Source: Parafrankia irregularis (GTDB taxonomy: Bacteria > Actinomycetota > Actinomycetes > Frankiales > Frankiaceae). Taken from it: DNA of 64,000 nucleotides. How positions within the stretch are numbered: position 1 is the first letter of the stretch; the number at the start of each line of letters is the position of its first letter. Below the pieces are notes generated by a model. It was given only the letters and a program-made list of their open reading frames with translations. It had not been told where the DNA came from and made no database searches. Both the position numbers and the translations under genes were made by a program. Positions 31,975-48,509 of this stretch are shown in pieces. The stretch covers positions 434,001 to 498,000 of the forward strand of contig NZ_FAOZ01000003.1 of NCBI RefSeq assembly GCF_001536285.1, in the 5' to 3' direction.

Positions 31975-33294
31975 ATGACTTCGCGTCGCCGTGCCCACCG
32001 ATTCGGGTCCTTATTCCTCGCGGCTACCGCCGCGCTCACCTTCGCCGCGTGCAGCGTCGAGTCGGACGACGACAGCGGCACGCCATCAGCCGGGGGGGCT
32101 ACTCCCGAGGCGTATCCACCTCCGCCGGCCTCGGCGACCGCGCCCGGGGTCACCTCCGACAGCATAAAGATCGGCTTTGTCTATCCCGACCTGGAGAAGG
32201 TCAAGCAGTATGTGGATGTCGACCACGGTGACTATCAGGCCGTCTTCCAGGCACTGGTCGACAAGGTGAACAAGGACGGCGGCATCGCCGGCCGCAGAAT
32301 CGTTCCGGTGTTCGGCGCGGTCGATGTGCTGTCGCCCGCCGGGGCCTCGGAGACCTGCGTCAGGCTGACCGAGGACGAGAAGGTCTTCGCCGCGCTCGGC
32401 AGCCTCAACGCCGAAGATGTGAACTGCTATGTGCAGACCCACAAGACGCTGGTCGTCGGCGGCGATCTCACCGCCGAGCGCTATGCCAGGGCCCAGGCGC
32501 CCTGGGTTTCCGACCTCCGAGGCGGCGACGAGCTCGGCGAGGGCCTGCAGCTGTACATCGACAAGGGCGTCCTGCGGGGCAGGAAGCTCGCGGTCGTCGC
32601 CTACCGCGACGACCAGGCCGTCCTGGACAAGGTCGTCCTGTCCACCCTGCGCTCGAAGAACATTCCCGTCACCGAGACGGGTGTTCTCGACGCCGACACC
32701 ACCGACCCCGCCGCCGTCTCGTCGCAGCTGAACGTCTTCATCCAGAAGTTCCAGTCGGCGGGTGTGGACACCGTGCTCCTCGTCGGAGGCTCCCAGGCCC
32801 AGTTCCCGACCGAACTGCAGAAGACCGGCTATCGCCCCCGCCTGTTGTTCGCGAATGCCAACACGGCCAGTTCCTACGTGCTGACGAATCGAAACGGCGA
32901 TCTCAGCGTCCTCGACGACTCACTCGCCCTCGGGCAGGCGACGAACTACTCCGACCCGAAGATCAACCCGTGTAGCTCCACGGTCGAGGCCGCCCTGCCC
33001 CAGACCAGGGGAAAGATCGTCGAGCCGGCCCTCACGCCTGCCGGGCAACCCTCCTGGGGCACCTCCGAATCCGTGGCCTGCCGCTACCTGACCCTGTTCC
33101 AGGCCATCGCCGAGAAGGCAGGCAAGGACCTCACCTACAAATCCTTCCAGGACGCCGCCTTCTCGCTGGGCAGCTTCCACATACCGACGCTCGTCGACGC
33201 GGCGACGTACAGCCGCCAGTCGCCGGCCGGCGACATCCCGCCGACGATCCTTCCGTGGGATCCGGCGAAGAAGGCGTTTCTTTCCGCCGGCTGA
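31975..33294 (+). CDS. Substrate-binding lipoprotein of the glycoside-island importer
   Basis: This 439-residue protein starts at the ATG at 31975, 71 bases after the permease fusion. The signal peptide ends in a lipobox (LTFAAC, Cys about residue 24) and is followed by a Ser/Asp/Pro/Ala linker. The receptor domain begins at TSDSIKIGFVYPDLEK and contains NKDGGIAGRRIVPVFG, typical of Peripla_BP_6. Ligands of this class are usually amino acids or organic acids. Its place among glycosidases suggests a glycosylated or acidic plant compound. It is quite different from the receptor at 10513, so the two importers probably differ in substrate. Confidence 0.88.
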   Translation: MTSRRRAHRFGSLFLAATAALTFAACSVESDDDSGTPSAGGATPEAYPPPPASATAPGVTSDSIKIGFVYPDLEKVKQYVDVDHGDYQAVFQALVDKVNKDGGIAGRRIVPVFGAVDVLSPAGASETCVRLTEDEKVFAALGSLNAEDVNCYVQTHKTLVVGGDLTAERYARAQAPWVSDLRGGDELGEGLQLYIDKGVLRGRKLAVVAYRDDQAVLDKVVLSTLRSKNIPVTETGVLDADTTDPAAVSSQLNVFIQKFQSAGVDTVLLVGGSQAQFPTELQKTGYRPRLLFANANTASSYVLTNRNGDLSVLDDSLALGQATNYSDPKINPCSSTVEAALPQTRGKIVEPALTPAGQPSWGTSESVACRYLTLFQAIAEKAGKDLTYKSFQDAAFSLGSFHIPTLVDAATYSRQSPAGDIPPTILPWDPAKKAFLSAG

Positions 33295-33478
33295 CCAGCC
33301 GTTGCCCGAACGCCGCCCCGCCCGGCCGGCGACAAACGGCCGGGCGGCGGCTCACCCGAGCAGGCCGGCCACCGGGACACCGGGCCACCGGTGTCAGGAG
33401 ACAGGACATGTCGTTCCCGCTTCCGGTCGGAGAGACACCGCGCATGCCGGGCGAACCGCGCCATGGAGAGGAAAAGTC

Positions 33479-35914
33479 ATGACCGCCACCGCGTTGACCC
33501 CCGGCAAGGTCGCGGACCTGCTCTCCCAGCTCACGCTGGAGCAGAAGGTCGCCCAGCTCACCGGATTCGCCGTCACCGACCTCGTCGTGCGTCCGACCAG
33601 CCCCAGGCCCGGCGGCGCGGGCGCGGGCGCGGAGAAGGCCGGCCCGACCATCGACGTCGAACGGTTGCCGGCGCTGCGGCCGCACGGGGTGGGGCACCTG
33701 TCACTGGGGTGGTTCCTCGGCCACGACGCCGACAGCCTGCGGTCCGATCTCGCGCGGGTCCAGGCGGCGGTGCGCGAGGCGACACCGTTCGGGATCGGGG
33801 CGCTCGTGCACATCGAGGCGATCAGCGGCCTGCTGCACAGCTCGGGCCCGCAGTTCCCGACCTCCTGGGCGCAGGCGGCCACCTGGGAGCCGGCGCTTGT
33901 GACGCGCGCCGCCGCCGTGACCGCCGCCCAGATGCGCGCCGCCGGGATCCAGCACGCGCTGTCACCGGTCATGGATCTCGCCCGGGATCCACGGTGGGGC
34001 CGCGTGCACGAGACCTACGGGGAGGACCCGGAGCTCGCCGCGCAGTTCTCCGTCGCGTTCGTGCGCGGCATCCAGGGCACCGACGGCTCCTCCGGAGTGC
34101 TCGCGACGGGCAAGCACTTCGTCGGTTACGGCGCCTCCGAAGGAGGGCTCAACCAGGCCGCCACCCAGCTCGGCCGGCGCGCGCTCGTCGACGAGTACGC
34201 CGAGCCGTTCCGCCGCGCCATCGCCGAGGCCGACCTCGCGACCATCATGAACTCCTACAACGAGATCGACGGCGTCCCCTGCGTCGCGGACCGCTGGCTG
34301 CTCACCGAGCTGCTGCGCGACCAGCTCGGCTTCACCGGCCTCGTCGTCAGCGACTACGACTCCGTGACACTGCAGACCCGCTTCTTCCACACCGCGGACT
34401 CGCCGGGGCGGGCCGCCGTCCAGGCGGTCAGCGCCGGCCTCGACGTCGAGCTCCCCGGCGACACCAACTACTCCCACCTGGTCGAGGAGGTCAGGAGCGG
34501 CCGGTTCGACGAGTCGATCATCGACACCGCCGCCGCCCGCGTCCTCACCGCCAAGGCCCGCGCCGGCCTCATCCCCGGCATGTCGGCGCGCGGACCCGCT
34601 CCCGCACCCAGGACACCGGATCCCGGCGAGCCGGCGGCGGTACGCCGTGCCATCGCCGAGCGGGGCATCGTCCTGCTCGACAACGACGGGACACTGCCGC
34701 TCACGCCCCGGGCCGGCCGCATCGTGGTGGTCGGCCCCGCGGCCGACGAGCTGCGCATCCACTTCGGCGCCTACACCTCGGTCTCGAACGCCGAGGTGCC
34801 GCTGGGGATGGTCGCGGTGATGACCGGGCAGGTCCCCGGCGTCGACCCGGCGACCTTCGTCTTCACCGACATCTTCCAGCCCCGGATGCCGGGGATGGAC
34901 GAACGGTTCGAGGCCGAGGCCCGCAGGCTCCACCCTGACGCGCCCACCGTGCTCGACGCGCTGCGGCAGGCCGACCCGTCCGTCGTGTACGTCCCCCTCG
35001 GGCGGTTCGAGGCCGCCGCCGAGCACCCGCTGGACAGCGCCGCCGCCGAGCACCCGCTGGACAGCGCCGCCGTCGAGCAGGCGGTGGCCGGTGCCGACAT
35101 CGTCGTCGCCGTGGTCGGCGAACGGACCGGCTGGGTCGGCAACAACACCGCCGGGGAAGGCCAGTCGACTGCCTCCCCCACCCTGCCAGGCGACCAGGAG
35201 GCGCTCGTCGCCCTGCTGGCAGCCACGGGGAAGCCGCTGGTGACCGTGGTCGTCTCCGGGCGGCCGCTCCTGCTCGGCGCCGTCGCCCAGGCCTCCAACG
35301 CGGTCCTGCTCGCACCGCTGCTCGGCGAGGAGGCTGGCGCCGCGATCGCCGACACGCTCTTCGGCACGGTCAACCCCAGCGGCAAGCTGCCCAGCACCTT
35401 CCCCCGCCACCTCGGCCAGGTGCCCCTCTACCACGGGCACCACTACGGCAGTGGCTACGACCACCCGACGGGCTCCCGGCACGGCTACAACGACCTGGCC
35501 GACAACAGCCCGCTCTACCCCTTCGGCCACGGCCTGTCCTACAGCACGTTCGAGGTCGCCCTCGACGACTCCGCCGGGGCGGCCGTCGAGTATGTCGACG
35601 GGCTCCTGCGTGCCCGGCTCGCCGCGGCCAACACCAGCGGCGTCGACGGCGAGACCGTCGTCCAGCTCTACGCCCGCGACGAGGCGGCGACCGTGGTCCG
35701 CCCCGTCCGTCGGCTGATCGGTTTCACCCGGCTGACGCTGGCTGCGGGGCAGCGCGCGACCGTCTCGCTCGAAGCTCCCGTGGAGCGCCTGTTCTACACA
35801 CAGGTCGACGGCACCCGGGGCATCGAGGCCGGCGAGGTGACCCTGCTCGCCGGCTTCAGCAGCGACGATATCCGCGCCCACGCCACGATCACCGTTCCCG
35901 CGCGCACCGCCTGA
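33479..35914 (+). CDS. Glycoside hydrolase family 3 (beta-glucosidase-like)
   Basis: This 811-residue protein starts at the ATG at 33479, behind GGAGAGG; the longer open frame from 33302 is not supported. The barrel domain has VHETYGEDPELAAQ, GKHFVGYGASEGG and the nucleophile Asp in VVSDYDSVT (about residue 290). A sandwich domain and a fibronectin-III-like end (PFGHGLSYSTFEVALD) complete the three-domain GH3 layout. There is no export signal. A 27-base exact tandem duplication (35015-35068) repeats nine residues (AAEHPLDSA) in the sandwich domain. With GH2, the other GH3, GH78 and GH1 it can trim several sugars from the same scaffold. Confidence 0.9.
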   Translation: MTATALTPGKVADLLSQLTLEQKVAQLTGFAVTDLVVRPTSPRPGGAGAGAEKAGPTIDVERLPALRPHGVGHLSLGWFLGHDADSLRSDLARVQAAVREATPFGIGALVHIEAISGLLHSSGPQFPTSWAQAATWEPALVTRAAAVTAAQMRAAGIQHALSPVMDLARDPRWGRVHETYGEDPELAAQFSVAFVRGIQGTDGSSGVLATGKHFVGYGASEGGLNQAATQLGRRALVDEYAEPFRRAIAEADLATIMNSYNEIDGVPCVADRWLLTELLRDQLGFTGLVVSDYDSVTLQTRFFHTADSPGRAAVQAVSAGLDVELPGDTNYSHLVEEVRSGRFDESIIDTAAARVLTAKARAGLIPGMSARGPAPAPRTPDPGEPAAVRRAIAERGIVLLDNDGTLPLTPRAGRIVVVGPAADELRIHFGAYTSVSNAEVPLGMVAVMTGQVPGVDPATFVFTDIFQPRMPGMDERFEAEARRLHPDAPTVLDALRQADPSVVYVPLGRFEAAAEHPLDSAAAEHPLDSAAVEQAVAGADIVVAVVGERTGWVGNNTAGEGQSTASPTLPGDQEALVALLAATGKPLVTVVVSGRPLLLGAVAQASNAVLLAPLLGEEAGAAIADTLFGTVNPSGKLPSTFPRHLGQVPLYHGHHYGSGYDHPTGSRHGYNDLADNSPLYPFGHGLSYSTFEVALDDSAGAAVEYVDGLLRARLAAANTSGVDGETVVQLYARDEAATVVRPVRRLIGFTRLTLAAGQRATVSLEAPVERLFYTQVDGTRGIEAGEVTLLAGFSSDDIRAHATITVPARTA
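35015..35068 (+). repeat. Exact 27-bp tandem duplication inside the GH3 gene
   Basis: Bases 35015-35041 and 35042-35068 are identical and in frame, doubling the peptide AAEHPLDSA in the second GH3 domain. The exact identity implies a recent event. The fold is likely to tolerate it in a surface loop. Confidence 0.9.
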
Positions 35915-35936
35915 CCAGATCGGAGTCGAAGGTTCG

Positions 35937-38423
35937 ATGGCATCTCCGTGGAAAGCCAGCTTCATCGCGCAGGCGGGCGCTTCGGCCGACGGCCGGCCGG
36001 CGCCGTACCTGCGAAGGGACTTCACCGTCGGCGGCGGGCTGCGGTCAGCGACCCTGCAGGTCACCGCCCTCGGCCTGATCGAGGCGCACCTGAACGGCAG
36101 CCGGGTCGGCGACGAGGTCCTCGCCCCGGGCTGGACGTCCTACGCGCACCGGCTCGTCGTCAGCAGGCATGAGGTCACCGACCTGCTGGTCGAGGGGGCG
36201 AACACGATCGGCGCGGTCCTCGGCGAAGGTTGGGCGGTGGGGCGGCTGACCTGGGAGGAGGGCCGGCGGGCGGTGTGGGCCGGCCGGCCCGCGGCCTTCC
36301 TGCAGCTCGAACTCGACTACGGCGACCGGGTCGAGGTGGTCGGCAGCGACGCCTCGTGGCGTGTGGGGACCGGCGCGGTCCTCGCCGACAGCCTCTACGA
36401 CGGCGAGACCTACGACGCCCGGCTGCACCCGGTGGGCTGGTGCGAGCCCGGATTCGGCGACGCCGCCTGGTCCGCCGCGGAGATCGTCGACCGCGGGCTC
36501 GACGCCCTCGTCACCGGCGAGGCTCCGCCGATCCGGCGGATCGAGGAGCTGGCGGTCGTGGAGGTCCTGACAACACCCACGGGCCGGACGGTCGCCGACT
36601 TCGGGCAGAACCTGACGGGCTGGGTCCGTCTCACTGTCCGCGGCGACGCCGGAACAACCGTCACCCTGCGCCACGCCGAGACGCTCATCGACGGCGAGCC
36701 CGACTTCCGCACCAACCGGAGCGCACTGGCGACGGACCGTTACACCCTGCGCGGTGACCCCGCCGGGGAGACCTGGGAGCCGCGGTTCACCTTCCACGGC
36801 TTCCGTTATGTGGACGTGGACGGCTGGCCAGGCGAGCTCACCGCCGACGCGCTGGTGGCCGTCGTCGTCCACAGCGACGTCCGCCGCACCGGCTGGTTCG
36901 AGACCTCGAACGAGCTCGTCAACCAGCTGCACCGCAACGTCGTCTGGTCCCTGCGCGGCAACATCGTCGGCGTTCCGAGCGACTGCCCGCAGCGCGACGA
37001 GCGCCTCGGCTGGACCGGTGACCTCAACGCCTTCGCCCCCACCGCCGCCTTCCTCTACGACATGCGCGGCCTGCTGGGCTCCTGGCTGACCGACCTCGCC
37101 GCCGAACAGGCCGAGAAGGGCCACGTGCCACTCGTCGTCCCGGACGCGCTCACCATGCCGATCACCACGCCGACGGCACTGTGGGCGGATGTCGCGGTGA
37201 GCCTGCCGTGGGCGCTCTACCAGGAGTACGGAGACCCGGCGGTTCTCGCCCGCCAGTACCCGTCCATGACGGCGTTCATGGACGGTGTCGAGGCGATGCT
37301 CGACGAACGGGGTCTGTGGAACAGCGGCTTCCAGTTCGGCGACTGGCTGGACCCCGACGCTCCGGCGAACAACCCCGCCGGGGGAAAGACCGACCCCTAC
37401 GTCGTCGCCACCGCCTACCTGTGCAGGACGACCCGTGAGCTGGCCCGCACCGCCCGGGTTCTGGGGCACGCCGAGGACGCCACCCGGTACGAGGCACTGC
37501 ACCGGCGGGTGCGCGCGGCGTTCCGCGACGAATGGGTCACTCCCGCCGGGCTCCTCGCCGCCGACACCGTCACCGCCTACGCGCTGGTCGTCTGCTTCGA
37601 CCTCCTCGAACCGGCGCAGCTGACGCGTGCCGGCAGGCGGCTCGCCGAGCTGGTCGCCAAGGCCGGGCACCGCATCAGCACCGGCTTCGCCGGCACGCCG
37701 CTCGTCGCGCACGCCCTGAGCCGCACCGGCCAGCTCGACATCGCCTACCGACTGCTCCTGCAGACCGAGTGCCCGTCCTTCCTCTACCCGGTGACCCGGG
37801 GCGCGACGACGATCTGGGAACGGTGGGACGCCATCAGGCCCGACGGCTCGCTGAACGACACCGGCATGACCTCGCTCAACCACTACGCCCTCGGCGCGAT
37901 CGCCGACTGGCTGCACCGCGTCGTCGGAGGACTCGAGCCGGCCGAGCCCGGCTACCGCCGCATCCGGATCGCCCCCCGGCCCGGCGGCGGGCTCACCCAC
38001 GCCACCGTCACCCACGACACCCCGCTCGGGCGCGTCCGCGTCCGCTGGCGGCACGACCCGGACGGCCGCCTGGCCGTCGACGCCACCATTCCCGCGGGCG
38101 CCGTCGCCGAGGTCGTCCTCCCCCACCATCCGGAAGGGCTGACCGAACAGGTCGCCGAAGGAGACCACCACTGGGAGTACGACGTCCCGCCCGCCGCGCA
38201 GGATCGCCCCGGCTACACCCTCGACACGCCGTTGAACGTCCTTTTCCGCGACACCACCACCTGGGCCGCGCTGCGCGCCGTCCTGCGCCGGCACCTGCCG
38301 CAGTTCGGCGACGCGGACACCGGTACCGAGCCCTCCCTGCCGAACCTTCGTACGCTGCTGCTCTACTTCCCCGGCCAGGCCGCAGCCATCGAGAACGATC
38401 TGGCCGCCATCCTCCAGGCGTGA
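35937..38423 (+). CDS. Alpha-L-rhamnosidase, glycoside hydrolase family 78
   Basis: This 828-residue protein follows the GH3 gene by 22 bases. N-terminal beta domains (GLIEAHLNGSRVGDEVLAPG, FGQNLTGWVRL) lead into the (alpha/alpha)6 catalytic domain. There the GH78 hallmark DCPQRDERLGWTGD (about residues 346-359) supplies acidic catalytic residues, and TIWERWDAI appears near 625. The C-terminal beta domain reads HATVTHDTPLGRVRV. A further tail of about 70 residues after the usual end (RPGYTLDTPLNVLF) is unusual. The family removes terminal L-rhamnose from flavonoid, saponin and pectin-derived glycosides. There is no signal peptide, so it is cytoplasmic. No rhamnose isomerase or kinase gene is visible in the window. 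Confidence 0.9.
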   Translation: MASPWKASFIAQAGASADGRPAPYLRRDFTVGGGLRSATLQVTALGLIEAHLNGSRVGDEVLAPGWTSYAHRLVVSRHEVTDLLVEGANTIGAVLGEGWAVGRLTWEEGRRAVWAGRPAAFLQLELDYGDRVEVVGSDASWRVGTGAVLADSLYDGETYDARLHPVGWCEPGFGDAAWSAAEIVDRGLDALVTGEAPPIRRIEELAVVEVLTTPTGRTVADFGQNLTGWVRLTVRGDAGTTVTLRHAETLIDGEPDFRTNRSALATDRYTLRGDPAGETWEPRFTFHGFRYVDVDGWPGELTADALVAVVVHSDVRRTGWFETSNELVNQLHRNVVWSLRGNIVGVPSDCPQRDERLGWTGDLNAFAPTAAFLYDMRGLLGSWLTDLAAEQAEKGHVPLVVPDALTMPITTPTALWADVAVSLPWALYQEYGDPAVLARQYPSMTAFMDGVEAMLDERGLWNSGFQFGDWLDPDAPANNPAGGKTDPYVVATAYLCRTTRELARTARVLGHAEDATRYEALHRRVRAAFRDEWVTPAGLLAADTVTAYALVVCFDLLEPAQLTRAGRRLAELVAKAGHRISTGFAGTPLVAHALSRTGQLDIAYRLLLQTECPSFLYPVTRGATTIWERWDAIRPDGSLNDTGMTSLNHYALGAIADWLHRVVGGLEPAEPGYRRIRIAPRPGGGLTHATVTHDTPLGRVRVRWRHDPDGRLAVDATIPAGAVAEVVLPHHPEGLTEQVAEGDHHWEYDVPPAAQDRPGYTLDTPLNVLFRDTTTWAALRAVLRRHLPQFGDADTGTEPSLPNLRTLLLYFPGQAAAIENDLAAILQA

Positions 38424-38522: not shown

Positions 38523-40061
38523 TCAGACAGCGCTGGCGGTCGCGTCTTCGGCGGCCAGGGCCGCCGCCGCGCGGTACTTCTCCCGGATCTCAGGACACGG
38601 CGGTGCGGTGTGGGTGGCGGCGTCCACCGCCGGCCAGTCGGGCTGACCGGCGAGCAGCACCGCGGCGGCCTGGCGGGCGGCGCCGTCCGCGACATACTCA
38701 CCGGGCGACGGGATGGCGACCGGGACACCGAGAACCGCCGGCGCCAGTGCGCGGACCGCCCGTGAGCGGGCGCCGCCGCCGACCATCGTCACCCGCCCGA
38801 CGTCGACGTTCTGCGCCCGCATGACGTCGACGCACTCGGCCATCAGGCACAGCAGGCCCTCGACCGACGCGCGGGCGAGGTTCTCCCGGGTCGTCGAGGC
38901 GAGGGAGAGGCCGTGCAGCGAGCCGGTGGCGGTGGGCAGGTTCGGGGTGCGTTCCCCTTCGAGGTAGGGCACGAACACCAGCCCGCCCGCACCCGGCTCG
39001 GCACGCAGGGCGAGGGTGTCGAGCGTGTCGTGGTCGACCTCGAGAAGCCGGCGGGTGACGTCGAGGACGCGGCTGGCGTTGAGAGTGCAGGCCAGCGGGA
39101 GATGGTGGCCGGTGGCGTCGGCGAAACCGGCCACCGCGCCGGAGGCGTCCCGGGTGCCGACCCGCGACACAGCCGCGACCACGCCCGAGGTGCCGAGTGA
39201 CAGCAGGCACGCGCCCGGCCGCAGTCCCAGGCCCAGGGCCGCACCGGCGTTGTCGCCGCAGCCGGGGCCCAGCAACAGATGCCCGAGCCCGGCGCCGGGG
39301 TCGCCGCGGCCCACTGCCTCGCCGGGCGCCGCGACCTCGGGAAGGCGAATCCGCGCGGTCTCGCCGGGGGTGCGCCGCAACGCGAGCGCGAGCAGGTCGC
39401 GACGGTAGCCGCCGGCGGGCGCAGGATGCCCACCGAAGGCGTCGGCTGCACGGCCGGAGGTGCCCGTGGCACCGTCTGGAACGTCCGCGGTACCGGCGGA
39501 GGCGTCGTAGTAGCCGGTGCCCGAGGCGTCGGAGCGGTCGGTGCGTAGCGTGTCGAGCGAACGGGCTCCGGCCAGCCGCCAGGTGAGCCAGTCATGCGGC
39601 AGGGCGATCGCGGCGATGCGTACCGCGGCGTCCGGCTCGTGATCGGCAAGCCAGCGCAGCTTGGCCACGGTGAACGACGCGACCGGGACCGAGCCCACCG
39701 CGCCGGCCCACGCGGCGGCGCCCGCCGCGGGGTCGCCGCCGCCGAGGTCGGTGACGAGGTCCCGGGCCGCCTGGGCCGAGCGGGTGTCGTTCCAGAGCAG
39801 TGCCGGCCGGATGACGTCGCCGTCGGAATCCAGGCAGATCATGCCGTGTTGCTGGCCGGCGACCGAGATCGCGGCGACGTCGCCCAGCCCGCCGGCGCGG
39901 TCGGCCGCGGTGCGCAGCGCGGTCCACCAGTGCTCGGGGTCGAGCTCGGTGCCGTCGGGATGCGGTGCGCTGCCGGCACGGACGAACCTGCCGGACCCGG
40001 CCTCACGGATGACGACCTTGCACGACTGGGTCGACGAATCGACGCCCGCAACCAGGGTCAT
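38523..40061 (-). CDS. xylB: Xylulokinase
   Basis: This 512-residue FGGY-family kinase opens with GVDSSTQSCK. AGQQHGMICLDSDG and PALLWNDTRS are characteristic of xylulokinases, and the ATP-site segments LSLGTSGVV and MVGGGARSRAVRALAP follow. It phosphorylates D-xylulose to xylulose 5-phosphate for the pentose phosphate pathway. It lies 27 bases after xylA on the same minus strand, the usual actinobacterial pair, and ends facing the rhamnosidase gene. A Gly/Ala/Thr-rich insertion (about residues 185-210) is longer than normal but lies in a variable region. Confidence 0.9.
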   Translation of the reverse strand: MTLVAGVDSSTQSCKVVIREAGSGRFVRAGSAPHPDGTELDPEHWWTALRTAADRAGGLGDVAAISVAGQQHGMICLDSDGDVIRPALLWNDTRSAQAARDLVTDLGGGDPAAGAAAWAGAVGSVPVASFTVAKLRWLADHEPDAAVRIAAIALPHDWLTWRLAGARSLDTLRTDRSDASGTGYYDASAGTADVPDGATGTSGRAADAFGGHPAPAGGYRRDLLALALRRTPGETARIRLPEVAAPGEAVGRGDPGAGLGHLLLGPGCGDNAGAALGLGLRPGACLLSLGTSGVVAAVSRVGTRDASGAVAGFADATGHHLPLACTLNASRVLDVTRRLLEVDHDTLDTLALRAEPGAGGLVFVPYLEGERTPNLPTATGSLHGLSLASTTRENLARASVEGLLCLMAECVDVMRAQNVDVGRVTMVGGGARSRAVRALAPAVLGVPVAIPSPGEYVADGAARQAAAVLLAGQPDWPAVDAATHTAPPCPEIREKYRAAAALAAEDATASAV

Positions 40062-40088: not shown

Positions 40089-41267
40089 TCAGCCGAGCAG
40101 GTGCTCGACGGCGAGCTGCTGCAGTCGGACGAAACCGAAGTCTCGTTCGGCCGCCTTGTCGGGGTCAAAGCCGTCCTGGTCGGCCAGCAGGTCGGCCGCG
40201 GTCTCACCGGGCGCCAGGGTCGGCTCGGCGAGTTCGAGTACGCCGGCGTAGGCCATCGCCTCCCGCACCCGGGGGTCCGCGCGGAACCGCTCCGCCTTCT
40301 CGGCGAGCAGCAGATAGGTCGCCATGCACGCCCGCGCCGACTCCCAGACACCGGCCAGATGCTCCGTCCGCGACGGCTTGTAGTCGAAGTGGCGGGGCCC
40401 GGTGTAGCGCGGGCCGTCGGGGTAGCCGGGGAAGCCGTTCTCGATCAGGTCGACCGTGAAGAACGCCGACAGCAGGTCGCCGTGACCGAAGACCAGGTCC
40501 TGGTCGTACTTCAGGCCTCGCTGGCCGTTGAGGTCGAGGTGGAACAGCTTCCCGCTCCACAGCGCCTGACCGAGCGCGTGGGTGTAGTTGAGATTCGCCA
40601 TCTGCTCGTGGCCGGTCTCCGGGTTGAGCCCGACGATGTCACCGTGCTCAAGCTCCGCGATGAGCGCCAGCGCGTGCCCGACGGTCGGCAGGAAGATGTC
40701 ACCACGCGGCTCGTTCGGCTTCGGCTCCAGCGCGATCCGCAGGTCGTAGCCCTGCGACCTGATGTAGCCGGCGACGGTGTCGATGCCCTCCCGATAGCGT
40801 TCCATGGCCGCGTAGACGTCCTTCGACCCGTCGTACTCGCCGCCCTCGCGGCCGCCCCACATCACGAAGGTGCTCGCGCCCAACTGGGCGGCGATCTCCA
40901 CGGCGCGCAGCACCTTGCGCAGCGCGAACCGGCGCACCGACCGGTCGTTGGACGTCAGCCCGCCGTCCTTGAAGACCGGGTGGGTGAAGGTGTTGGTGGT
41001 GACCATCTCGATCACCAGCCCGGCGGCATCCGCCGCGTCCCGGAGCCGGCGGACCCGCTGATCGCGAGTCGCCTCGTCGGCGTCGAACGGGAACACGTCG
41101 TTGTCGTGGAAGGTGATCCCCCACGCCCCGAGCTCGGCCAGCCGGCCGGCGTACTCCCAGGGGTCCAGCACCGGACGGGTCGCGGCACCGAACGGGTCCG
41201 CCCCGGGCCAGCCCACCGTCCACAGCCCGAACGAGAACCTGTCCTGGCTCGTCGGTTGCCGCACCAT
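40089..41267 (-). CDS. xylA: Xylose isomerase
   Basis: The protein has 392 residues from the ATG at 41267, giving the typical class-I actinobacterial start [19 protein letters not shown]; a longer frame to 41306 exists. The catalytic His lies in [11 protein letters not shown], the metal-binding Glu/Lys region in [12 protein letters not shown], the second His region in NPETGHEQM and the metal Asp in LFHLDLNGQ. It converts D-xylose to D-xylulose (and glucose to fructose). It is the first gene of the xylAB pair and is divergent from the sugar-acid operon. The ACTAGC-N4-GCTAGT operator at 41336 lies between them and probably controls both directions. Confidence 0.93.
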
Positions 41268-41296
41268 CCCGCATCCCACCCTTCCCGCCGAGGAAC

Positions 41297-41351
41297 TTGC
41301 ACGCACTAGTAGGCGCTGTTAACTTACAGCCCATCACTAGCGCCCGCTAGT
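41297..41351 (+). promoter_or_regulatory. Promoter and double operator between xylA and the sugar-acid operon (site B)
   Basis: TTGCAC (41297-41302) and TAACTT (41320-41325) are 17 bases apart and read rightward. ACTAGT (41305-41310) lies in the spacer and the palindrome ACTAGC-GCCC-GCTAGT at 41336-41351 just past the predicted start. It aligns nearly base for base with site A at 21531. The palindrome would also sit over leftward transcription of xylAB, for which I see a TAAGTT -10 candidate but no good -35. It is probably bound by the LacI protein at 20493. Confidence 0.75.
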
Positions 41352-41520
41352 GCTCCGGAAGACGCCGAACGAATCCCGACCACGCGAGAACGTTCGACCC
41401 GATCGCCGCGGACCGCACGACAAGATCCGCTACCGCTGTCCGTTCCGTGATCCCGTCGGCCCGGTGGCCCGGCGAGATCGCCGGCGCCAACCGACACTCC
41501 CACGCGGAGGACACCCTCAG

Positions 41521-42540
41521 ATGGAACTGACACGAGAATTCCTGCGGGCCGCCGGTCTGCCCGGCGAGGATCCGCGGGAGCTGCCGAGCAGCATCGGGCG
41601 CTTCCCTGACGGCGCGGCCTACCGGACCGAGATTCCGAGCGTCGAGGGGCCGGAGGCGCTGGCCGCGGTGCTGGCGGAGGCGGACCAGCGGGCCGTGCCG
41701 GTGCACCGCGTCTCCCAGGGCAGCGGCGGGCTGCTGCTCACCCAGGCCGAGCTGCGCACCATGGCCGAACTCGGCGCGGCAGCCGGGATCGAGGTCAGCC
41801 TGTTCGCCCGGCCGCTGGCCGGCTGGGACGTCGGCGCCGCCTCCCTCGCCCCCGGCGCCGCGGGCCTCGGGGCCCAGGCCCGCGGCGTCGAGCAGCTCGT
41901 CCACGTGCTGGAGGACATCCGCCGGATGACCGAGGCCGGAATCCGCGGGACCCTGGTGACAGACCTCGGTGTGCTGTCGATCGCCGCGCAGATGCGAGCC
42001 GCCGGGGAACTGCCCGCCGATCTACGTTTCAAGACCAGCGTGCAGATGGGGCTGGCGAACCCGGCCTCGATCCGGATCGCCGCCCGGCTGGGCGCCGACT
42101 CGTACAACGTCCCGACCGACCTGTCACTCGCGCAGATCGCGGCGGTGCGCGCCGCGGTGGACATCCCGATCGACCTGTACGTGGAAGCGCCCGACGACCT
42201 CGGCGGCTTCGTGCGGCATTTCGAGATCGCCGAGATCGTCCGCGTCGCCGCGCCGGTCTACCTGAAGTTCGGGCTGCGGGGCGCCCCCAACATCTACCCA
42301 GCAGGGACGCATCTGACCGCCACGGCGATCGCACTCGGCCGTGAACGGGTCCGCCGGGCCGAGATCGGCCTGGAACTCCTTCACCGCTACGCACCCGACC
42401 TGGCGTCCGCCGGTTCGGTGCTGCCCGCCGCCGACCTGGCCGTGCCGGCACCAACCACCGAGGCAACCACGGCACCGACCAGTCAGCCGGTGCCGACCAC
42501 CGAGCCGTCCTCGACCCACACCCCGGCGGTGGCACGATGA
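41521..42540 (+). CDS. TIM-barrel protein resembling peptidase U32, function unknown
   Basis: This 339-residue protein starts at the ATG at 41521, behind GGAGG. Repeating beta/alpha units (GTLVTDLGVLSIAAQM, LRFKTSVQMGLANP, GADSYNVPTDLSLAQIAAVR, IPIDLYVEAPDD, YLKFGLRGAPNIYPAG) suggest a TIM barrel of the U32/collagenase-like group, but I see no protease hallmark. About 35 Pro/Thr/Ser residues form the C-terminal tail. It is the first gene of the LacI-controlled sugar-acid operon and overlaps the dehydratase gene by four bases. The pathway lacks a recognisable keto-deoxy-sugar-acid dehydratase or aldolase, so a role there is conceivable but unproven. Confidence 0.6.
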   Translation: MELTREFLRAAGLPGEDPRELPSSIGRFPDGAAYRTEIPSVEGPEALAAVLAEADQRAVPVHRVSQGSGGLLLTQAELRTMAELGAAAGIEVSLFARPLAGWDVGAASLAPGAAGLGAQARGVEQLVHVLEDIRRMTEAGIRGTLVTDLGVLSIAAQMRAAGELPADLRFKTSVQMGLANPASIRIAARLGADSYNVPTDLSLAQIAAVRAAVDIPIDLYVEAPDDLGGFVRHFEIAEIVRVAAPVYLKFGLRGAPNIYPAGTHLTATAIALGRERVRRAEIGLELLHRYAPDLASAGSVLPAADLAVPAPTTEATTAPTSQPVPTTEPSSTHTPAVAR

Positions 42541-43721
42541 AAATCGCGCAGTTGGAGACGTTCGTCCTCGGCACCCCCTGGCGTGACCTGACCTACGTGC
42601 GGCTGCGCACCGACGACGGCCTGGTCGGCGTCGGTGAGACACGCATGCTCGGCCACACCCGCGCGCTGCTGGGCTATCTGGCCGAGGCCGGCGACAACCA
42701 CGTCCTCGGCTCCGACCCGTTCGACATCGAGTCTCTTGTCGGCCGGATGAAACGCGGCGACTACGGCCGCGCCGGCGAGATCGTCATGTCCGGCATCGCC
42801 TGTGTCGAGATGGCCTGCTGGGACATCGTCGGCAAGGCACTCGGGCAACCCGTCTGGCGGCTGCTCGGCGGTGCGGTCCGCGACCGGATCAAGGCCTACG
42901 CCAACGGCTGGTACACCGTCGAGCGCACCCCGGAGGAGTTCCACGCCGCCGCCCGCCGGGTCGTGGAACGCGGCTACCAGGCTCTCAAGTTCGACCCGTT
43001 CGGCCCCGGCTGGGCCGAACTCGAACCCGCCGAGCGACGCCGCTCGATCAGCCTCGTCGAAGCCGTCCGCGACGCCGTCGGCCCGGACGTCGAGATCCTC
43101 GTCGAGATGCACGGCCGGTTCTCACCCCACGAGGCCATCCGGATCTCCGCCGCGGTCGCGGAGTTCGAACCGTCGTGGGTCGAGGAGCCGGTACCACCGG
43201 AGAACCTTCGCGCGCTGGCCAAGGCCGCCGCCGGCATCGCGCTGCCCGTCGCCACCGGCGAACGCATCCACGACCGGATCGAATACCGCGAACTGTTCGA
43301 CCTCGGCGCCGCCGACATCATCCAGCCCGACATCGGCCACCTCGGCGGCATCGCCGAAACCCGCAAACTCGCCGCCACCGCCGAGACCCACTACATCCTC
43401 GTCGCCCCGCACAACGTCGGCGGCCCAGTCCTCACCGCCGCCAACCTCCACCTCGCCGCCACCACCCCCAACTTCAAGATCCAGGAACACTTCAACGACT
43501 TCGCCGACGAGGAGGTCAAACTGGCAGCCCCCGGATGCCCGCCCGTCGTCGACGGCTACTTCGCCCTGCCCACCGCACCCGGCCTCGGAGTGGAACTCGA
43601 CATCGACTTCATCCGCGACCGGCCCTCCCAGGGCGCCCACTTCGACCTCTATCAGGAAGGCTGGGAACTGCGCGGGACCCGGCCGGCAAGAGGTCCCGCC
43701 GCGGCCGGCCGAACACCGTGA
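42537..43721 (+). CDS. Enolase-superfamily sugar-acid dehydratase (mandelate racemase/galactonate dehydratase-like)
   Basis: This 394-residue protein has a capping domain (residues 1-110) followed by the barrel. Key sites are the KFDPFG lysine region near 150, the metal-site/acid residues in EILVEMHGRFS (about 188), Glu in PSWVEEPVPPEN (about 215), Glu in VATGERIH (about 240) and QPDIGHLGG (about 265). This pattern fits galactonate/xylonate/rhamnonate-type dehydratases. It should convert an aldonic acid to its 2-keto-3-deoxy form. Neighbours supply the matching dehydrogenase, lactonase and semialdehyde dehydrogenase. The sugar cannot be fixed from sequence. Confidence 0.85.
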   Translation: MKIAQLETFVLGTPWRDLTYVRLRTDDGLVGVGETRMLGHTRALLGYLAEAGDNHVLGSDPFDIESLVGRMKRGDYGRAGEIVMSGIACVEMACWDIVGKALGQPVWRLLGGAVRDRIKAYANGWYTVERTPEEFHAAARRVVERGYQALKFDPFGPGWAELEPAERRRSISLVEAVRDAVGPDVEILVEMHGRFSPHEAIRISAAVAEFEPSWVEEPVPPENLRALAKAAAGIALPVATGERIHDRIEYRELFDLGAADIIQPDIGHLGGIAETRKLAATAETHYILVAPHNVGGPVLTAANLHLAATTPNFKIQEHFNDFADEEVKLAAPGCPPVVDGYFALPTAPGLGVELDIDFIRDRPSQGAHFDLYQEGWELRGTRPARGPAAAGRTP

Positions 43722-44731
43722 CCACCGTCTGGATCGACAGCCCCGGTCATCTCGCCCTGCGCGCGTCCACGCCCGCCGCCCCAGGCCCGGGAGAGGCCCT
43801 GGTCCGGGTCGCCTGGGCCGGCATCTGCGGGTCCGACCGGGAGATCCTGCGCGGCACCCGCCCGGCCTCCTACGTCACCTACCCTGTCGTGCCAGGCCAC
43901 GAATGGTCCGGCACCGTGACAGCCGTCGGGCCCGGCGTGGACGGAGCGCTGGTCGGCCGCGCCGTCGTCGGTGAAGGATTCCGTGCCTGCCGGATGTGTG
44001 GGCCCTGCTGGCAAGGCGACACCAACCTCTGCGACGGCCCCTACGACGAGACCGGGTTCACCCGGGCCGGAGCCTGGGCCGACGAACTGGTCGTACCGGC
44101 AGCCCTGCTGCACCCCCTGCCGGACGGCACCGACCTGCGAGCAGCCGCCGTCCTGGAGCCGGCGGCCTGCTCCGCCGCCGCCTGCCTGCGCGCCGCACCC
44201 GTGCCCGGCACGCGCATCGCCGTCGTCGGCGCCGGCACGCTCGGCCTGCTCGCCCTGCAGCTCCTCGCCGCCGGCGGGCCGGACGAACTGATCGCGATCG
44301 ATCCGCGCTCCGGCCGGGACGAGCTGGCCACGGCCTGCGGCGCCACCGCGACGATCAGCCCACTGCAGGCAGGAGCTCAGCCCTGGCGAGGCCGCTTCGA
44401 CGCCGTGGTCGAAACCGCCGGCGCACCCGGCAGCGCACTACTCGCCACCACGCTCGCCCGCCGCGGCGCGACGGTCGTCCTCACCGGCCTGGCCGCCCGC
44501 GACGACAGCCCACTCCCCCCGATCGACCTGGTCACCAACCAGCTGACAGTCCACACCGTCTTCGGAGCACCGTCCCGTGCCTGGACTCACGCGGTCCGTG
44601 CGTTCACCAGCGGGATGCTGCGGCCCGACCTCGTCATCAGCCACGACCTCCCCCTGCGCGACGTCGACCGTGCCTTCGAACTCCTCGACGGCGGCGGGCC
44701 CGGGGTGACCAAGATCCTGCTCAGCCCGTAG
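43718..44731 (+). CDS. Zinc-dependent sugar/polyol dehydrogenase (MDR family)
   Basis: This 337-residue protein starts at the GTG overlapping the dehydratase stop (GTGA). The catalytic zinc ligands appear in AGICGSDREI (Cys about residue 37) and PGHEWSG (His-Glu about 62-63). The structural zinc cluster is CRMCGPCWQGDTNLC with four cysteines. The Rossmann motif is VVGAGTLGLLALQLL. Medium-chain dehydrogenases of this kind oxidise sugars, polyols or threonine. In this operon oxidation of an aldose to its lactone is the simplest reading, feeding the SMP-30 lactonase. Confidence 0.85.
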   Translation: MTTVWIDSPGHLALRASTPAAPGPGEALVRVAWAGICGSDREILRGTRPASYVTYPVVPGHEWSGTVTAVGPGVDGALVGRAVVGEGFRACRMCGPCWQGDTNLCDGPYDETGFTRAGAWADELVVPAALLHPLPDGTDLRAAAVLEPAACSAAACLRAAPVPGTRIAVVGAGTLGLLALQLLAAGGPDELIAIDPRSGRDELATACGATATISPLQAGAQPWRGRFDAVVETAGAPGSALLATTLARRGATVVLTGLAARDDSPLPPIDLVTNQLTVHTVFGAPSRAWTHAVRAFTSGMLRPDLVISHDLPLRDVDRAFELLDGGGPGVTKILLSP

Positions 44732-44771: not shown

Positions 44772-46301
44772 ATGCCCCCCTCGAAAGCGCCCACCCCGCC
44801 GACCGAACCGTCCGCCACGACACCGGAGGCACTCGAGCGGATACTCGCCGCCGCCTCGGCCGCGGCCGCCCCCTACGGCGCGCTCTCCCCCCAGGACCGG
44901 GCCCGCATGCTGCGCGAGGTCGCCGCCGCTCTCGACGCCGACACCGACGCGCTGGTCGGCCTGGCCGGTGAGGAGACGCGGCTGCCCGAGCCGCGGCTGC
45001 GGGGCGAGCTCGTGCGCACCACGTTCCAGCTCCGGCTGTTCGCCGACCTGCTCGATGACGGCGCCTACCTGGAAGCGGCCCTCGACGCCCCTGACTCGGG
45101 CTGGCCGACCGGGCCCCGCCCGGACCTGCGGCGCATGCTCGTTCCGGTGGGTCCGGTGATCGTCTTCGCCGCGTCGAACTTCCCGTTCGCGTTCAGCGTC
45201 GCCGGTGGCGACACCGCCGCCGCCCTCGCCGCCGGCTGCCCGGTACTACTCAAAGCACACCCCGGGCACCCCGAGCTGTCGCGGCACACCGCCCGCCTGG
45301 TGACGGAGGCGCTCGCCGGCGCCGGCGCGCCCGGCGGGGTCTTCGCGCTCGTCGAAGGCGACACCGCCGGCCGCGACGCCCTCGTCGACCCGCGGGTCCG
45401 GGCCGGCGCGTTCACCGGATCCCTCCGGGTCGGGCGGCTGCTGTTCGACCTCGCCGCCGGCAGGCCGGACCCGGTCCCCTTCTACGGCGAGCTGGGCAGC
45501 ATCAACCCCGTCTTCGTCACCCCGGGCGCGGCCCATAGCCGCGGAGCCGAGATCTGGGCGGGCTACGTCGAGTCCTTCGCCCTCGGCGCCGGCCAGTTCT
45601 GCACCAAGCCGGGGCTCCTGCTGGCCCCGGCCGGCGCGGCCGAAGACGCACTGACCGCGGCGCTGTCCGGGCGAGCCGGTGCGCCGCTGCTCAACGAGCG
45701 CATCGAGCACGGCTTCCAGGCGGGCCTGGGCACGCTGACCGGGCATCCGGCGGTGCGAGTGCTCACCGCCGGCGACGCAGCGGGTGGCACGGCGGGCGCG
45801 GTCAGGCCCTCGCTGCTCGCCACCACCGCGCGCGACCTGCTCGCCGACCTCGACGTCATCGGCGCCGAGGTCTTCGGCCCCGCGTCCGTCCTGGTCACCT
45901 ACACGGACCCGGCCGAGCTGACCGCGGTCGCGGGGGCCATCCAGGGCCAGCTGACCGCGACCGTCCACGGCGACGCCGACGACCCCGTGGACGCCGCCCT
46001 CAGCCGGGACCTGCTTCGCGAGCTGTCCCGGCGGGCCGGCCGGGTGCTCTGGAACGGCTGGCCGACCGGCGTCTCGGTCACCCACGCGATGACCCACGGC
46101 GGCCCCTACCCCGCGACCACCTCGACGTTCACCTCCGTCGGGACGACGTCGATCGGCCGTTTCCTCCGCCCGGTCACCTACCAGGGGGTTCCGGACGCGC
46201 TGCTGCCGGCGGCGCTGCGCGACGCCAACCCGTGGAAGCTGCCGCGGCGACACGACGGCCGGCCGGCCATCCCGGATGACACCGGCCCGGCCCGGGCATG
46301 A
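44772..46301 (+). CDS. Alpha-ketoglutaric semialdehyde-type dehydrogenase
   Basis: This 509-residue ALDH-superfamily enzyme has IVFAASNFPFAFSVAGGDTA as the cofactor loop, FTGSLRVG, and the general-base Glu in PFYGELGSINPVFV. The catalytic Cys is in ALGAGQFCTKPG (about residue 277). The ELGSINPVF and GQFCTKPG forms are characteristic of 2,5-dioxovalerate/alpha-ketoglutaric semialdehyde dehydrogenases. These produce 2-oxoglutarate at the end of non-phosphorylating pentose and sugar-diacid pathways. The gene overlaps the lactonase gene by four bases. This is the best single clue that the operon carries a Weimberg-like route. Confidence 0.85.
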   Translation: MPPSKAPTPPTEPSATTPEALERILAAASAAAAPYGALSPQDRARMLREVAAALDADTDALVGLAGEETRLPEPRLRGELVRTTFQLRLFADLLDDGAYLEAALDAPDSGWPTGPRPDLRRMLVPVGPVIVFAASNFPFAFSVAGGDTAAALAAGCPVLLKAHPGHPELSRHTARLVTEALAGAGAPGGVFALVEGDTAGRDALVDPRVRAGAFTGSLRVGRLLFDLAAGRPDPVPFYGELGSINPVFVTPGAAHSRGAEIWAGYVESFALGAGQFCTKPGLLLAPAGAAEDALTAALSGRAGAPLLNERIEHGFQAGLGTLTGHPAVRVLTAGDAAGGTAGAVRPSLLATTARDLLADLDVIGAEVFGPASVLVTYTDPAELTAVAGAIQGQLTATVHGDADDPVDAALSRDLLRELSRRAGRVLWNGWPTGVSVTHAMTHGGPYPATTSTFTSVGTTSIGRFLRPVTYQGVPDALLPAALRDANPWKLPRRHDGRPAIPDDTGPARA

Positions 46302-47245
46302 CCGGGATCCACCAGGTGACCGGGCCGGTCACCCGCCACGGGGAGGGCCCGGTGTGGGTGCCGTCCTGGGGCGGCCTGCACCTCGTCGACATGCTTGCCG
46401 GCGACGTCCTCGCGCTCGACACCGAGACCGGCGCGGTCGGCCGCCACCACGTCGGCACCGTCGCCGCGGCCGTGCGTCCCAGGGCGGGCGGCGGCGCGGT
46501 TCTCGCGCTCGAACGCGGCTTCGCGCTGCTCGACCCGCCGCCGACGGCGCCACTCACTCCGCCGGGGCCGCCAACGGGACCGCCCGCCCTGCCGAGGTCG
46601 CCTGCCTCACCGTTCCAGGCCGGCCCGGCGGCCGCCGCGAAACCGCGTCTCCTCCCCGAGCTGTGGCCCGCCGATCGGGGGCTGCGGATGAACGACGGCG
46701 GCTGTGACCCGGACGGGCGCTTCTACTGCGGTTCGATGGCGTACGACGAGGCCACAGGCGCCGGCGCACTCCACCGGCTCGATCCCGACGGCACCACCAC
46801 TGTCGTCCTGTCCGGAGTGACGATCTCGAACGGACTGGTGTGGAGCCCGGACGGCAGCAGAGCTCACTATGTGGACACACCCACCGGCGGCATCGACGTC
46901 TTCGACTACGACCCCGACACCGGTCTCACCGGTCGGCGGCCGTGGGCAGCCGTGCCGCGGGGAAAGCCGGACGGACTCGCCGTCGACGCCGAGGGCGGTG
47001 TGTGGGCGGCGCTGTGGGGCGGCGCGGCGATCTGCCGGTACACGGCGGCCGGTGACCTCGACGAGGTGATCGCCCTACCGGTCCCGCAGGTCACGGCGTG
47101 TGCGTTCGGTGGCGCCGACCTCGCGACCCTTTACGTGACGACGTCGACGCTTCGCACGGACCTCGAGCGATATCCGACCGCCGGCGCCGTCTACGCCGTG
47201 GATGTGGGGATCCGCGGACTCCCCGTGCTGCCTTTCACGGGTTAG
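46298..47245 (+). CDS. SMP-30/gluconolactonase-family sugar lactonase
   Basis: This 315-residue propeller shows the divalent-metal ligands of the family: Glu in GEGPVWV (about residue 16), Asn in RMNDGGCDPDGRFYCGSM (about 131), Asn in ISNGLVWSPDGSRAHYVD (about 176) and Asp in GKPDGLAVDAEGGVWAALW. It hydrolyses the sugar lactone made by the zinc dehydrogenase. A Pro/Ala-rich insertion of about 45 residues (about 78-122) interrupts the second blade region and is not seen in ordinary members. The start overlaps the semialdehyde dehydrogenase stop (ATGA). Confidence 0.88.
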   Translation: MTGIHQVTGPVTRHGEGPVWVPSWGGLHLVDMLAGDVLALDTETGAVGRHHVGTVAAAVRPRAGGGAVLALERGFALLDPPPTAPLTPPGPPTGPPALPRSPASPFQAGPAAAAKPRLLPELWPADRGLRMNDGGCDPDGRFYCGSMAYDEATGAGALHRLDPDGTTTVVLSGVTISNGLVWSPDGSRAHYVDTPTGGIDVFDYDPDTGLTGRRPWAAVPRGKPDGLAVDAEGGVWAALWGGAAICRYTAAGDLDEVIALPVPQVTACAFGGADLATLYVTTSTLRTDLERYPTAGAVYAVDVGIRGLPVLPFTG

Positions 47246-47285: not shown

Positions 47286-48509
47286 ATGAGCACATTCCCC
47301 GAGAACTTCCTCTGGGGTGCGGCGACCGCGCCGCACCAGGTCGAGGGCGGCAACGTCGGTTCCGACATGTGGCGCAGCGAATGGGCGAAGAACTCCCGGT
47401 TCGCCGAGCCCTCAGGCGACGCCTGCGACCACTACCACCGGTATCCGGAGGACATCGCCACCCTGGCCGGTCTCGGCCTGAACGCCTACCGCTTCGGGGT
47501 CGAGTGGGCGCGGATCGAGCCCGAGGAAGGCTATTTCTCGCGCGCCGCGCTCGACCACTACCGACGGATGGTCGGCACCTGCCTCGAGCACGGCGTCACT
47601 CCGGTCGTGACCTACAACCACTTCTCGACCCCGTGGTGGTTCGCCGAGGCGGGAGGCTGGACGAATCCCACGGCGGCAGACCGGTTCGCCCGGTATGCGG
47701 GTCGGGTGACCGAGCACATCGGTGACCTGGTGCCCTGGGTGTGCACGTTCAACGAGCCGAACGTCATCTCGCTGATGGTGCATCTCGGCATCATCCCGGC
47801 CGCGTCCCGCGAAGACGCCCTCGGCCTGGCGGCCAGCAGGCAGCCCGAGGATACGGGCACGGCGGGAGCGGGCGCGGCGTGGGCCGCCCCCGCCGTCGAG
47901 GTGATGGCGAACGCGCATCGCAAGGCCGTGGAGGCGATCAAGTCCGGGCCGGGGAACCCCGCCGTCGGCTGGACGCTGGCCCTCATCGATCTGCAGCCCG
48001 CCGACGGCGGCGAACAACGCTGGCAGGCCGTTCGCCAGGCCGCCCTCCTCGACTGGCTCCACGTCTCCCGCGACGACGACTTCATCGGTGTCCAGACCTA
48101 CACCCGCGAACGCATCGGCCCCGACGGCGTCCTGCCTGTTCCCGGCGGGGCCCCCACCACCCAGACCGGATGGGAGGTCTACCCCGAGGCGCTGGGCCAC
48201 ACCGTCCGCCTCGCCGCACAGCACACCGGGGTGCCCGTCCTGGTCACCGAGAACGGCATGGCCACCGACGATGACGACGCCCGGATCACCTACACGACCG
48301 CCGCCCTCGAGGGGCTCGCCGGTGCCATCGCCGACGGTGTCGACGTCCGCGGCTACCTGCACTGGACGCTGCTCGACAACTTCGAGTGGACGTCCGGCTA
48401 TCAGATGACCTTCGGACTCGTCGCCGTCGACCGCACCACCTTCGCCCGCACCGTCAAGCCCTCCGCCCGATGGCTCGGCAAGATCGCCCGCGCCGGCGGA
48501 CCCGCCTGA
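47286..48509 (+). CDS. Glycoside hydrolase family 1 beta-glucosidase
   Basis: This 407-residue enzyme starts at the ATG at 47286; the open frame to 47202 lacks a start site. NFLWGAATAPHQVEGGN is the GH1 N-terminal signature. The acid/base Glu lies in CTFNEPN (about residue 157) and the nucleophile in LVTENGMA (about 322), with LHWTLLDNFEW near the end. It is shorter than the usual 440-480 residues but no core motif is missing. It hydrolyses beta-glucosides or beta-galactosides in the cytoplasm. It closes the sugar-acid operon (40-base gap). Confidence 0.9.
   Translation: MSTFPENFLWGAATAPHQVEGGNVGSDMWRSEWAKNSRFAEPSGDACDHYHRYPEDIATLAGLGLNAYRFGVEWARIEPEEGYFSRAALDHYRRMVGTCLEHGVTPVVTYNHFSTPWWFAEAGGWTNPTAADRFARYAGRVTEHIGDLVPWVCTFNEPNVISLMVHLGIIPAASREDALGLAASRQPEDTGTAGAGAAWAAPAVEVMANAHRKAVEAIKSGPGNPAVGWTLALIDLQPADGGEQRWQAVRQAALLDWLHVSRDDDFIGVQTYTRERIGPDGVLPVPGGAPTTQTGWEVYPEALGHTVRLAAQHTGVPVLVTENGMATDDDDARITYTTAALEGLAGAIADGVDVRGYLHWTLLDNFEWTSGYQMTFGLVAVDRTTFARTVKPSARWLGKIARAGGPA

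Follow-up and report, generated by a model that had tools for sequence, protein, structure and literature searches.

A cysteine-free U32-like protein as a candidate 2-keto-3-deoxy-pentonate dehydratase in a sugar-acid operon of Parafrankia irregularis

Proteins of the DHDPS family have a barrel fold with a Schiff-base lysine, and 5-dehydro-4-deoxyglucarate dehydratase makes alpha-ketoglutaric semialdehyde (KGSA). The fold and the lysine are also described in the accessible part of PMC6336799, and, as far as the accessible sections of this paper and of PMC7374468 go, the known dehydratases of 2-keto-3-deoxy-pentonate (KDP) are either DHDPS or FAH proteins. UbiU/UbiV, TrhP and RlhA of the U32 family modify RNA or quinone. 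According to the accessible text of PMC6747719, UbiU and UbiV carry a [4Fe-4S] cluster on four conserved cysteines, and two U32 families without such a cysteine motif are named there as well. The protein described here shares with this family, including the solved structure 5d88, the barrel fold and a score above the PF01136 cut-off, but, unlike UbiU/UbiV, TrhP and RlhA, it has no Fe-S cysteines, matches the Pfam profile only in part and is encoded in a sugar-acid operon. This operon has the dehydrogenase, lactonase, pentonate dehydratase and KGSA dehydrogenase (KGSADH) in common with Weimberg operons, and the KDP step is apparently U32-like here. The DHDPS-type L-KDP dehydratase and 5-dehydro-4-deoxyglucarate dehydratase resemble the protein in the proposed reaction type, the adjacency to KGSADH and the barrel, whereas there is no sequence match and no common KGSADH neighbourhood, and the invariant lysines lie on model strands 5 and 8. 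The FAH-type D/L-KDP dehydratases (C785_RS13680/13710; GguC/AraD1) are alike in the proposed reaction but unrelated in sequence family; a likeness to GguC/AraD1 is that the U32 gene precedes ChvE/GguAB-like transporter genes in Streptomyces-type loci. We found no paper in the open-access literature that places a U32-like protein in a pentonate pathway, and the accessible part of a Streptomyces xylan proteomics paper (PMC12772271) mentions neither a peptidase nor a racemase.

The window, which is the whole stretch of 64,000 nucleotides that was analysed, contains the U32-like gene at 41521-42540 on the forward strand. The open reading frame runs from an ATG at 41521 to a TGA ending at 42540, encodes 339 amino acids and is preceded by GGAGG approximately 10 bases 5' of the start codon. 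It overlaps by four bases with an enolase-superfamily (MR/MLE) sugar-acid dehydratase gene (42537-43721), which starts with the ATG at 42537 and whose product comes closest to the models for gluconate/galactonate dehydratase but stays under their cut-offs. Further along the forward strand lie the genes for a Zn-dependent dehydrogenase (43718-44731; ADH_N/ADH_zinc_N), presumed to be an aldose 1-dehydrogenase and reaching no NCBIfam cut-off, an aldehyde dehydrogenase (ALDH) of the KGSADH type (44772-46301; Aldedh), a SMP-30/gluconolactonase-type lactonase (46298-47245; PF08450, 227.7 bits) and, as the last gene of the run, a GH1 beta-glucosidase-type hydrolase recognised with Pfam/NCBIfam (47286-48509). 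The first-pass annotation of this DNA had listed a dehydrogenase, lactonase, dehydratase and KGSADH-type enzyme, and the corresponding Zn-ADH, SMP-30/SGL, MR_MLE and Aldedh families were indeed found; that the unassigned gene comes first and is coupled to the dehydratase, and that no KDP dehydratase or aldolase is recognisable, also held, since the U32-like gene heads the operon with its four-base overlap and the operon has no DHDPS, FAH or HpcH gene. On the reverse strand, the divergent xylose isomerase gene xylA (40089-41306, with an alternative start at 41267; TIGR02631, 605.9 bits, cut-off 447) and a gene for a xylulokinase-type FGGY kinase (38523-40061; TIGR01312, 357.7 bits against a cut-off of 380) are located.

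The sole Pfam match of the U32-like protein at E<=10 was Peptidase_U32 (PF01136), with 35.1 bits (cut-off 22.4), covering only positions 6-90 of the 233 in the profile. At the same threshold there was no Pfam match to DHDPS/NAL or FAH (PF01557) profiles, and no solved structure was matched by sequence at E<=10; NCBIfam returned only a weak match to UbiU. The protein has no cysteines, a feature that the first-pass annotation had not mentioned, and can therefore not hold the U32 iron-sulphur cluster. Among the 32 relatives counted together with it, 31 have between zero and two cysteines and one, which is truncated, has five. An AlphaFold2 model based on 67 sequences shows a confident (beta/alpha)8 barrel (pLDDT 92.3, pTM 0.88) with eight strands, from beta-1 (34-38) to beta-8 (246-250). 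Residues that are invariant across the 67 sequences include E37, R63, D148, K171, S173, N180, D200, D218, Y220, E222, R232, K249, E275 and R279, and the model places K171 in strand 5 and K249 in strand 8. The nearest solved folds were lyase/mutase barrels, the U32 protein 5d88, CutC and RuBisCO-like proteins, all with similar scores. 5d88 (Mk0906) ranked fourth (Foldseek E 1.4e-6; VIA Z 14.4, rmsd 2.8, 183 residues aligned), and CutC, RuBisCO-like and lyase barrels scored at least as well, thus the match to the U32 fold is non-specific. DHDPS/NAL structures were not among the structural matches listed, which leaves room for such a match. Since many barrels score alike, the fold comparison cannot choose between DHDPS-, HpcH- or FAH-like chemistry. 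The unfamiliar fold that had been suggested at first gave way to a U32-type barrel, with PDB 5d88 among the near matches, that lacks the Fe-S ligands; the structure prediction proposed as a check delivered a confident barrel, but similarity to lyase families does not name the reaction.

Candidates for the KDP step were sought genome-wide (9.5 Mb, completeness 99.7%). The DHDPS family occurs in a single place, scoring as DapA over its cut-off, the FAH family in seven places and HpcH_HpaI in nine, eight of them over the cut-off, and none of the FAH and HpcH_HpaI places lies in the window. When the FAH neighbourhoods of this genome were inspected by eye, one contained an adjoining ALDH that shares 29.5% identity with that of the window in an alignment of 298 residues. 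Neither the NeuB family (PF03102) nor, in the whole genome, the L-arabinose isomerase (AraA) family was matched. Because the operon has all the other steps, and the only DHDPS protein of the genome is DapA, elimination points to the U32-like protein for the KDP step. The objection that this enzyme might be encoded elsewhere is weakened by the DapA assignment, yet at other places the genome still has five FAH-family genes without an assigned role.

A scan of named genomes yielded 32 loci with 68-82% identity in the best segment, from Frankia/Parafrankia, Amycolatopsis, Saccharomonospora, Saccharopolyspora, Prauserella, Actinocatenispora and others. Genes in the loci were called with a simple home-made codon model and not with a standard gene finder, so that start positions may be inaccurate and the gene lists incomplete; the tree of loci left out L020, L030, L031 and L069. 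An MR dehydratase gene adjoins the U32 gene in 10 of 32 and in 21 of 45 loci, and an IlvD/EDD gene does so in 9 of the 45, the pairing with IlvD/EDD being found in L072, L077 and L094 and, separately, in L088 and L091. In a fresh set of 20 loci from other phylum groups, the stretch contains MR in nine, IlvD in three and neither in eight. MR and IlvD are unrelated, and the metabolite they share with U32 would, most simply, be a 2-keto-3-deoxy acid. The Frankia-group loci (L001, L005, L012 and L022) keep MR, ADH, KGSADH and SMP30, and those of Amycolatopsis/Saccharomonospora vary from U32-MR-KGSADH or U32-KGSADH to U32 alone. In Streptomyces-type loci the order is MR-ADH-U32-ChvE-GguA-GguB-mutarotase, some with IclR, SMP30 and KGSADH in addition; ChvE scores over its NCBIfam cut-off, and most of these operons (MR, ADH, U32, ChvE/GguAB) have no KGSADH within the stretch. 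An IclR gene is found near U32 in 23 of the 32 loci. Several loci of f19 combine GH43 and GH51 arabinan enzymes with IclR, GntR, MR and U32, and the Thermomicrobium roseum relative (65% identity) is accompanied by IclR, an ABC transporter, MR and an MBL-fold hydrolase.

A different arrangement is seen in f25, where most of the nine relatives have genes for an SDR, an APH-type kinase and an additional enolase as neighbours. In L075, L076, L078, L079, L081, L082 and L083 the U32 gene is followed by a short SDR, the kinase and a divergent second enolase, and of the f25 genomes searched the second enolase was present in 4/4 U32-positive and 0/1 U32-negative ones. Such neighbours suggest that the substrate in f25 is a different or broader one, and the conserved module possibly feeds glycerate-type products to phosphoenolpyruvate. 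In genome G145 the U32 gene belongs to an f25-type module, and the KGSADH gene is located elsewhere, beside a DHDPS gene (L117).

The best NCBIfam match of the window ALDH was 2,5-dioxovalerate dehydrogenase, and since its 71.7 bits are far below the cut-off of 750, the enzyme was assigned by context. It is 62, 59 and 55% identical to the ALDHs of the L118, L128 and L141 operons, respectively, the DHDPS genes of which pass the cut-off of the 5-dehydro-4-deoxyglucarate dehydratase subfamily, as 3 of the 6 DHDPS neighbours tested did. With relatives beside a KGSA-making dehydratase, the window ALDH clade is probably KGSADH. Identity to the ALDH in a FAH-IlvD-SMP30 locus (L125) was 59%. A second ALDH clade occurs near U32, adjacent to it in L207 and L214 and behind MR in L203. 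The best family for the L203, L207 and L214 proteins was the KGSADH GucD (450, 529 and 544 bits, cut-off 770), which outscored the lactaldehyde and glyceraldehyde dehydrogenase models. That two KGSADH-like clades meet U32 is a pointer to KGSA as the product.

After removal of the duplicate loci L127 and L133, 77 distinct KGSADH neighbourhoods were available, which were collected partly via U32 and partly via KGSADH and are therefore not a random sample. U32 is present in 21 of these, none of which contains DHDPS, against 30 of the 56 without U32 (Fisher p 3.5e-6, for a non-random sample in which relatives are counted separately). The window and 14 other neighbourhoods have U32 with neither FAH nor DHDPS, and 6 of the 21, all from f25, have U32 together with FAH. 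At the genome level, KGSADH (E<1e-90, from a list transcribed by hand) was found in 48 of 50 U32-positive and 80 of 246 U32-negative genomes, counts that are uncorrected for kinship.

We propose that the U32-like protein acts on KDP and most likely dehydrates it to KGSA, a reading to which we assign a probability of roughly 0.52; it is probably a pentonate-pathway enzyme in an unexpected protein family. What the analysis shows is the operon, the predicted fold, the lack of cysteines, the recurring partners and the common operator sequences, and from there the reaction, substrate, chemistry and regulator binding are inferred. The neighbouring dehydratase would make KDP, the U32-like protein would convert this to KGSA, and the operon would then constitute a complete oxidative (Weimberg-type) pentose pathway of dehydrogenase, lactonase, pentonate dehydratase, U32-like KDP dehydratase and KGSADH, for which L-arabinose is the likeliest sugar. 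The 2-oxo acid would bind at the barrel mouth, where the C3 proton would be abstracted and the C4 hydroxyl lost. The invariant K171 (beta-5) or K249 (beta-8) may hold the keto group, by Schiff base or charge, and E37, D148, D218, Y220 or E222 may serve as acid/base residues. Of the two roles first envisaged for this protein, that of the missing enzyme is thus the best supported, by the pairing with dehydratase and KGSADH, the lack of sharing with DHDPS and an arabinose-type regulon, although FAH co-occurs at some loci. The module neighbours of most f25 relatives and of G145, the panB-type neighbours of three relatives at 38-39% identity, the even overall spread of araA and the five unassigned FAH-family genes of this genome also speak against it. 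An accessory role is less likely: U32 is found with unrelated families that have only a metabolite in common.

The main rival reading, with a lesser chance, is that the protein is an aldolase, which would split KDP (or a wider range of 2-keto-3-deoxy acids) into pyruvate and glycolaldehyde in a Dahms-type route, with ALDH oxidising the aldehyde. In the Foldseek comparison the predicted barrel is close to aldolase/lyase families, and invariant lysines are found on its strands, but the fold similarity is non-discriminating. The scarcity of KGSADH in the Streptomyces-type operons would fit such a route, and the U32-SDR-kinase-second enolase module of f25 would presumably suit glyceraldehyde release. 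However, the ALDHs that adjoin U32 belong to two clades that are both most KGSADH-like, and the aldolase route would need no KGSADH. It is likewise rather unlikely that the FAH genes encode the KDP dehydratases and that U32 serves the pathway in some other way, for example as epimerase, other-substrate enzyme or accessory protein. U32 and FAH are found together in the L088, L091, L209 and f25 loci, adjacent to each other and to KGSADH in L209 and both preceded by the operator discussed below in L088 and L091, and FAH-type KDP dehydratases have been published, as the accessible part of PMC6336799 describes. If a co-occurring FAH protein is a KDP dehydratase, U32 must act otherwise at those loci. 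Against this, 15 of the 21 neighbourhoods with U32 and KGSADH, that of the window included, have no FAH. Moreover, according to the same part of PMC6336799, FAH enzymes of differing D/L preference can share one cluster, so that U32 as a stereo-specific dehydratase is compatible with the co-occurrence. The FAH proteins in question have a poor family assignment; they may act on the other stereoisomer or be hydrolases of another route, but may also be the KDP dehydratases. A classical U32 function (Fe-S, prephenate-dependent hydroxylase, protease), placed here by chance, is highly improbable, for although the Pfam U32 cut-off is passed and hhalign finds UbiU (E 2.2e-5 over 118 columns), the window protein has no cysteine against the four conserved Fe-S cysteines reported for UbiU and UbiV in the accessible text of PMC6747719, and the gene contexts are those of sugar catabolism. 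In the UbiU alignment D218 falls on E161, which probably corresponds to the TrhP residue E162 described as essential in the accessible part of PMC6599085, K171 falls on a histidine, and S173 and N180 fall on identical residues.

More tentatively, and with odds that we put clearly below even, the cysteine-free U32 branch could be a third, unrelated family of KDP dehydratases, common for oxidative L-arabinose use in actinobacteria, and the U32 barrel was perhaps ancestrally a 2-oxo acid dehydratase. Since the Fe-S U32 enzymes need prephenate, a 2-oxo acid able to lose a hydroxyl, the barrel may predate hydroxylation, and the expelled hydroxyl would later have been passed on to RNA or quinone. 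If KDP dehydration by the U32-like protein is true, pentose catabolism would become the assignment of genes now labelled 'U32 family peptidase' in Frankia relatives, Streptomyces, Amycolatopsis, Saccharopolyspora, Thermomicrobium and others, and the KDP step would be filled in genomes that are seemingly unable to finish oxidative arabinose use. It would also provide a new enzyme for the conversion of hemicellulose sugars to 2-oxoglutarate-derived chemicals, and a testable clue to the use of prephenate by the Fe-S U32 hydroxylases. The gene recurs in many soil and freshwater bacteria, at loci for the breakdown of a plant sugar, probably L-arabinose.

The upstream regions of U32 loci contain a 16-bp palindrome, GTYCGAWATWTCGRAC, as a candidate operator, which the IclR protein may bind, judging from its position. 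With up to two mismatches it precedes 37/77 U32, 26/54 IclR, 1/59 MR, 2/13 IlvD, 2/14 FAH, 3/77 KGSADH, 0/36 DHDPS and 25/1955 other genes, and the enrichment at U32 and IclR is partly circular because the degenerate 16-mer was read off U32 loci, after initial guesses that missed most sites. In 17 chosen genomes, of which all 16 besides that of the window had supplied U32 loci, between zero and four sites were found at one mismatch, and none with the reversed control. The U32-like family is present in 50 of the 296 sampled genomes of the class, and all 13 genomes with exact sites are among these 50 (p 2e-11); nine of the 13 were also sources of the U32 loci, and four (G057, G112, G191 and G277) were not. 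Within genus g22 the exact operator occurs in 9 of the 19 U32-positive genomes and in none of the 8 U32-negative ones (p 0.026). Ten of the 16 exact sites are far from U32: seven precede genes for AbfB-domain, GH43, GH62 or secreted arabinofuranosidase proteins, and one a gene for a sugar-binding protein. Further sites in the 17 genomes lie in front of a GH51/ABC cluster, of IlvD with an MFS transporter and of a galactarate-dehydratase-family gene. Judged by these targets, the regulon seems to serve the use of arabinan and pentonates, which makes L-arabinose the likeliest sugar. In L132, L150, L164 and L165, from four Streptomyces-type genomes, a KGSADH gene lies apart from U32 and beside an IclR gene, and in L164 and L165 the promoter shared by these two genes contains the U32 operator with two mismatches. 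The araA counts, tallied by hand, showed no overall anti-correlation with U32 (18/50 U32-positive versus 92/246 U32-negative genomes), and a suggestive one within families (0/5 versus 6/22 in f1, and 0/10 versus 7/17 in f25).

GTYCGAWATWTCGRAC is absent from the genome of the window. The xylA/U32 intergenic region contains, nearer to xylA, another palindrome, CACTAGCGccCGCTAGTG (41335-41352), a candidate LacI-type operator and the best match in the genome. A near-copy with one mismatch (21571-21588) is situated between a LacI gene and a GH2 gene, and these two are the sole matches with fewer than three mismatches in the 9.5 Mb. The LacI-family regulator (20493-21485, reverse strand; PF00356 52.2 bits, PF13377 104.6 bits) is a candidate binder of both palindromes. 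Together with the GH2, two GH3, transporter and GH78-type alpha-L-rhamnosidase genes, the LacI gene forms a glycoside cluster (window 20493-38423), which thus has a palindrome in common with the xylA/U32 region. Upstream of U32 in L005, L012 and L022, by a divergent LacI gene, lies the palindrome AATGTTAGCGCTAACATT, which differs from that of the window, and no 8-mer upstream of U32 was common to at least four of five Frankia-group loci.

A search of the phylum gave matches in 44 of 296 genomes, 13 of which were weak and short. Relatives with 38-39% identity in L215, L216 and L217 adjoin a gene of 286-292 amino acids, identified as panB in L217; these three are stretches of approximately 30% GC from genomes of about 1.0-1.4 Mb in family f68. 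A distant relative (30% identity) is carried by a plasmid of Enterobacter chuandaensis (L056, 7222-20858), in a run that resembles a biosynthetic cluster and comprises an APH-type kinase, an enolase-like gene clustering with the f25 enolase, an aminotransferase, two iron-containing redox enzymes, an M14 peptidase, an MFS protein and a nucleotidyltransferase.
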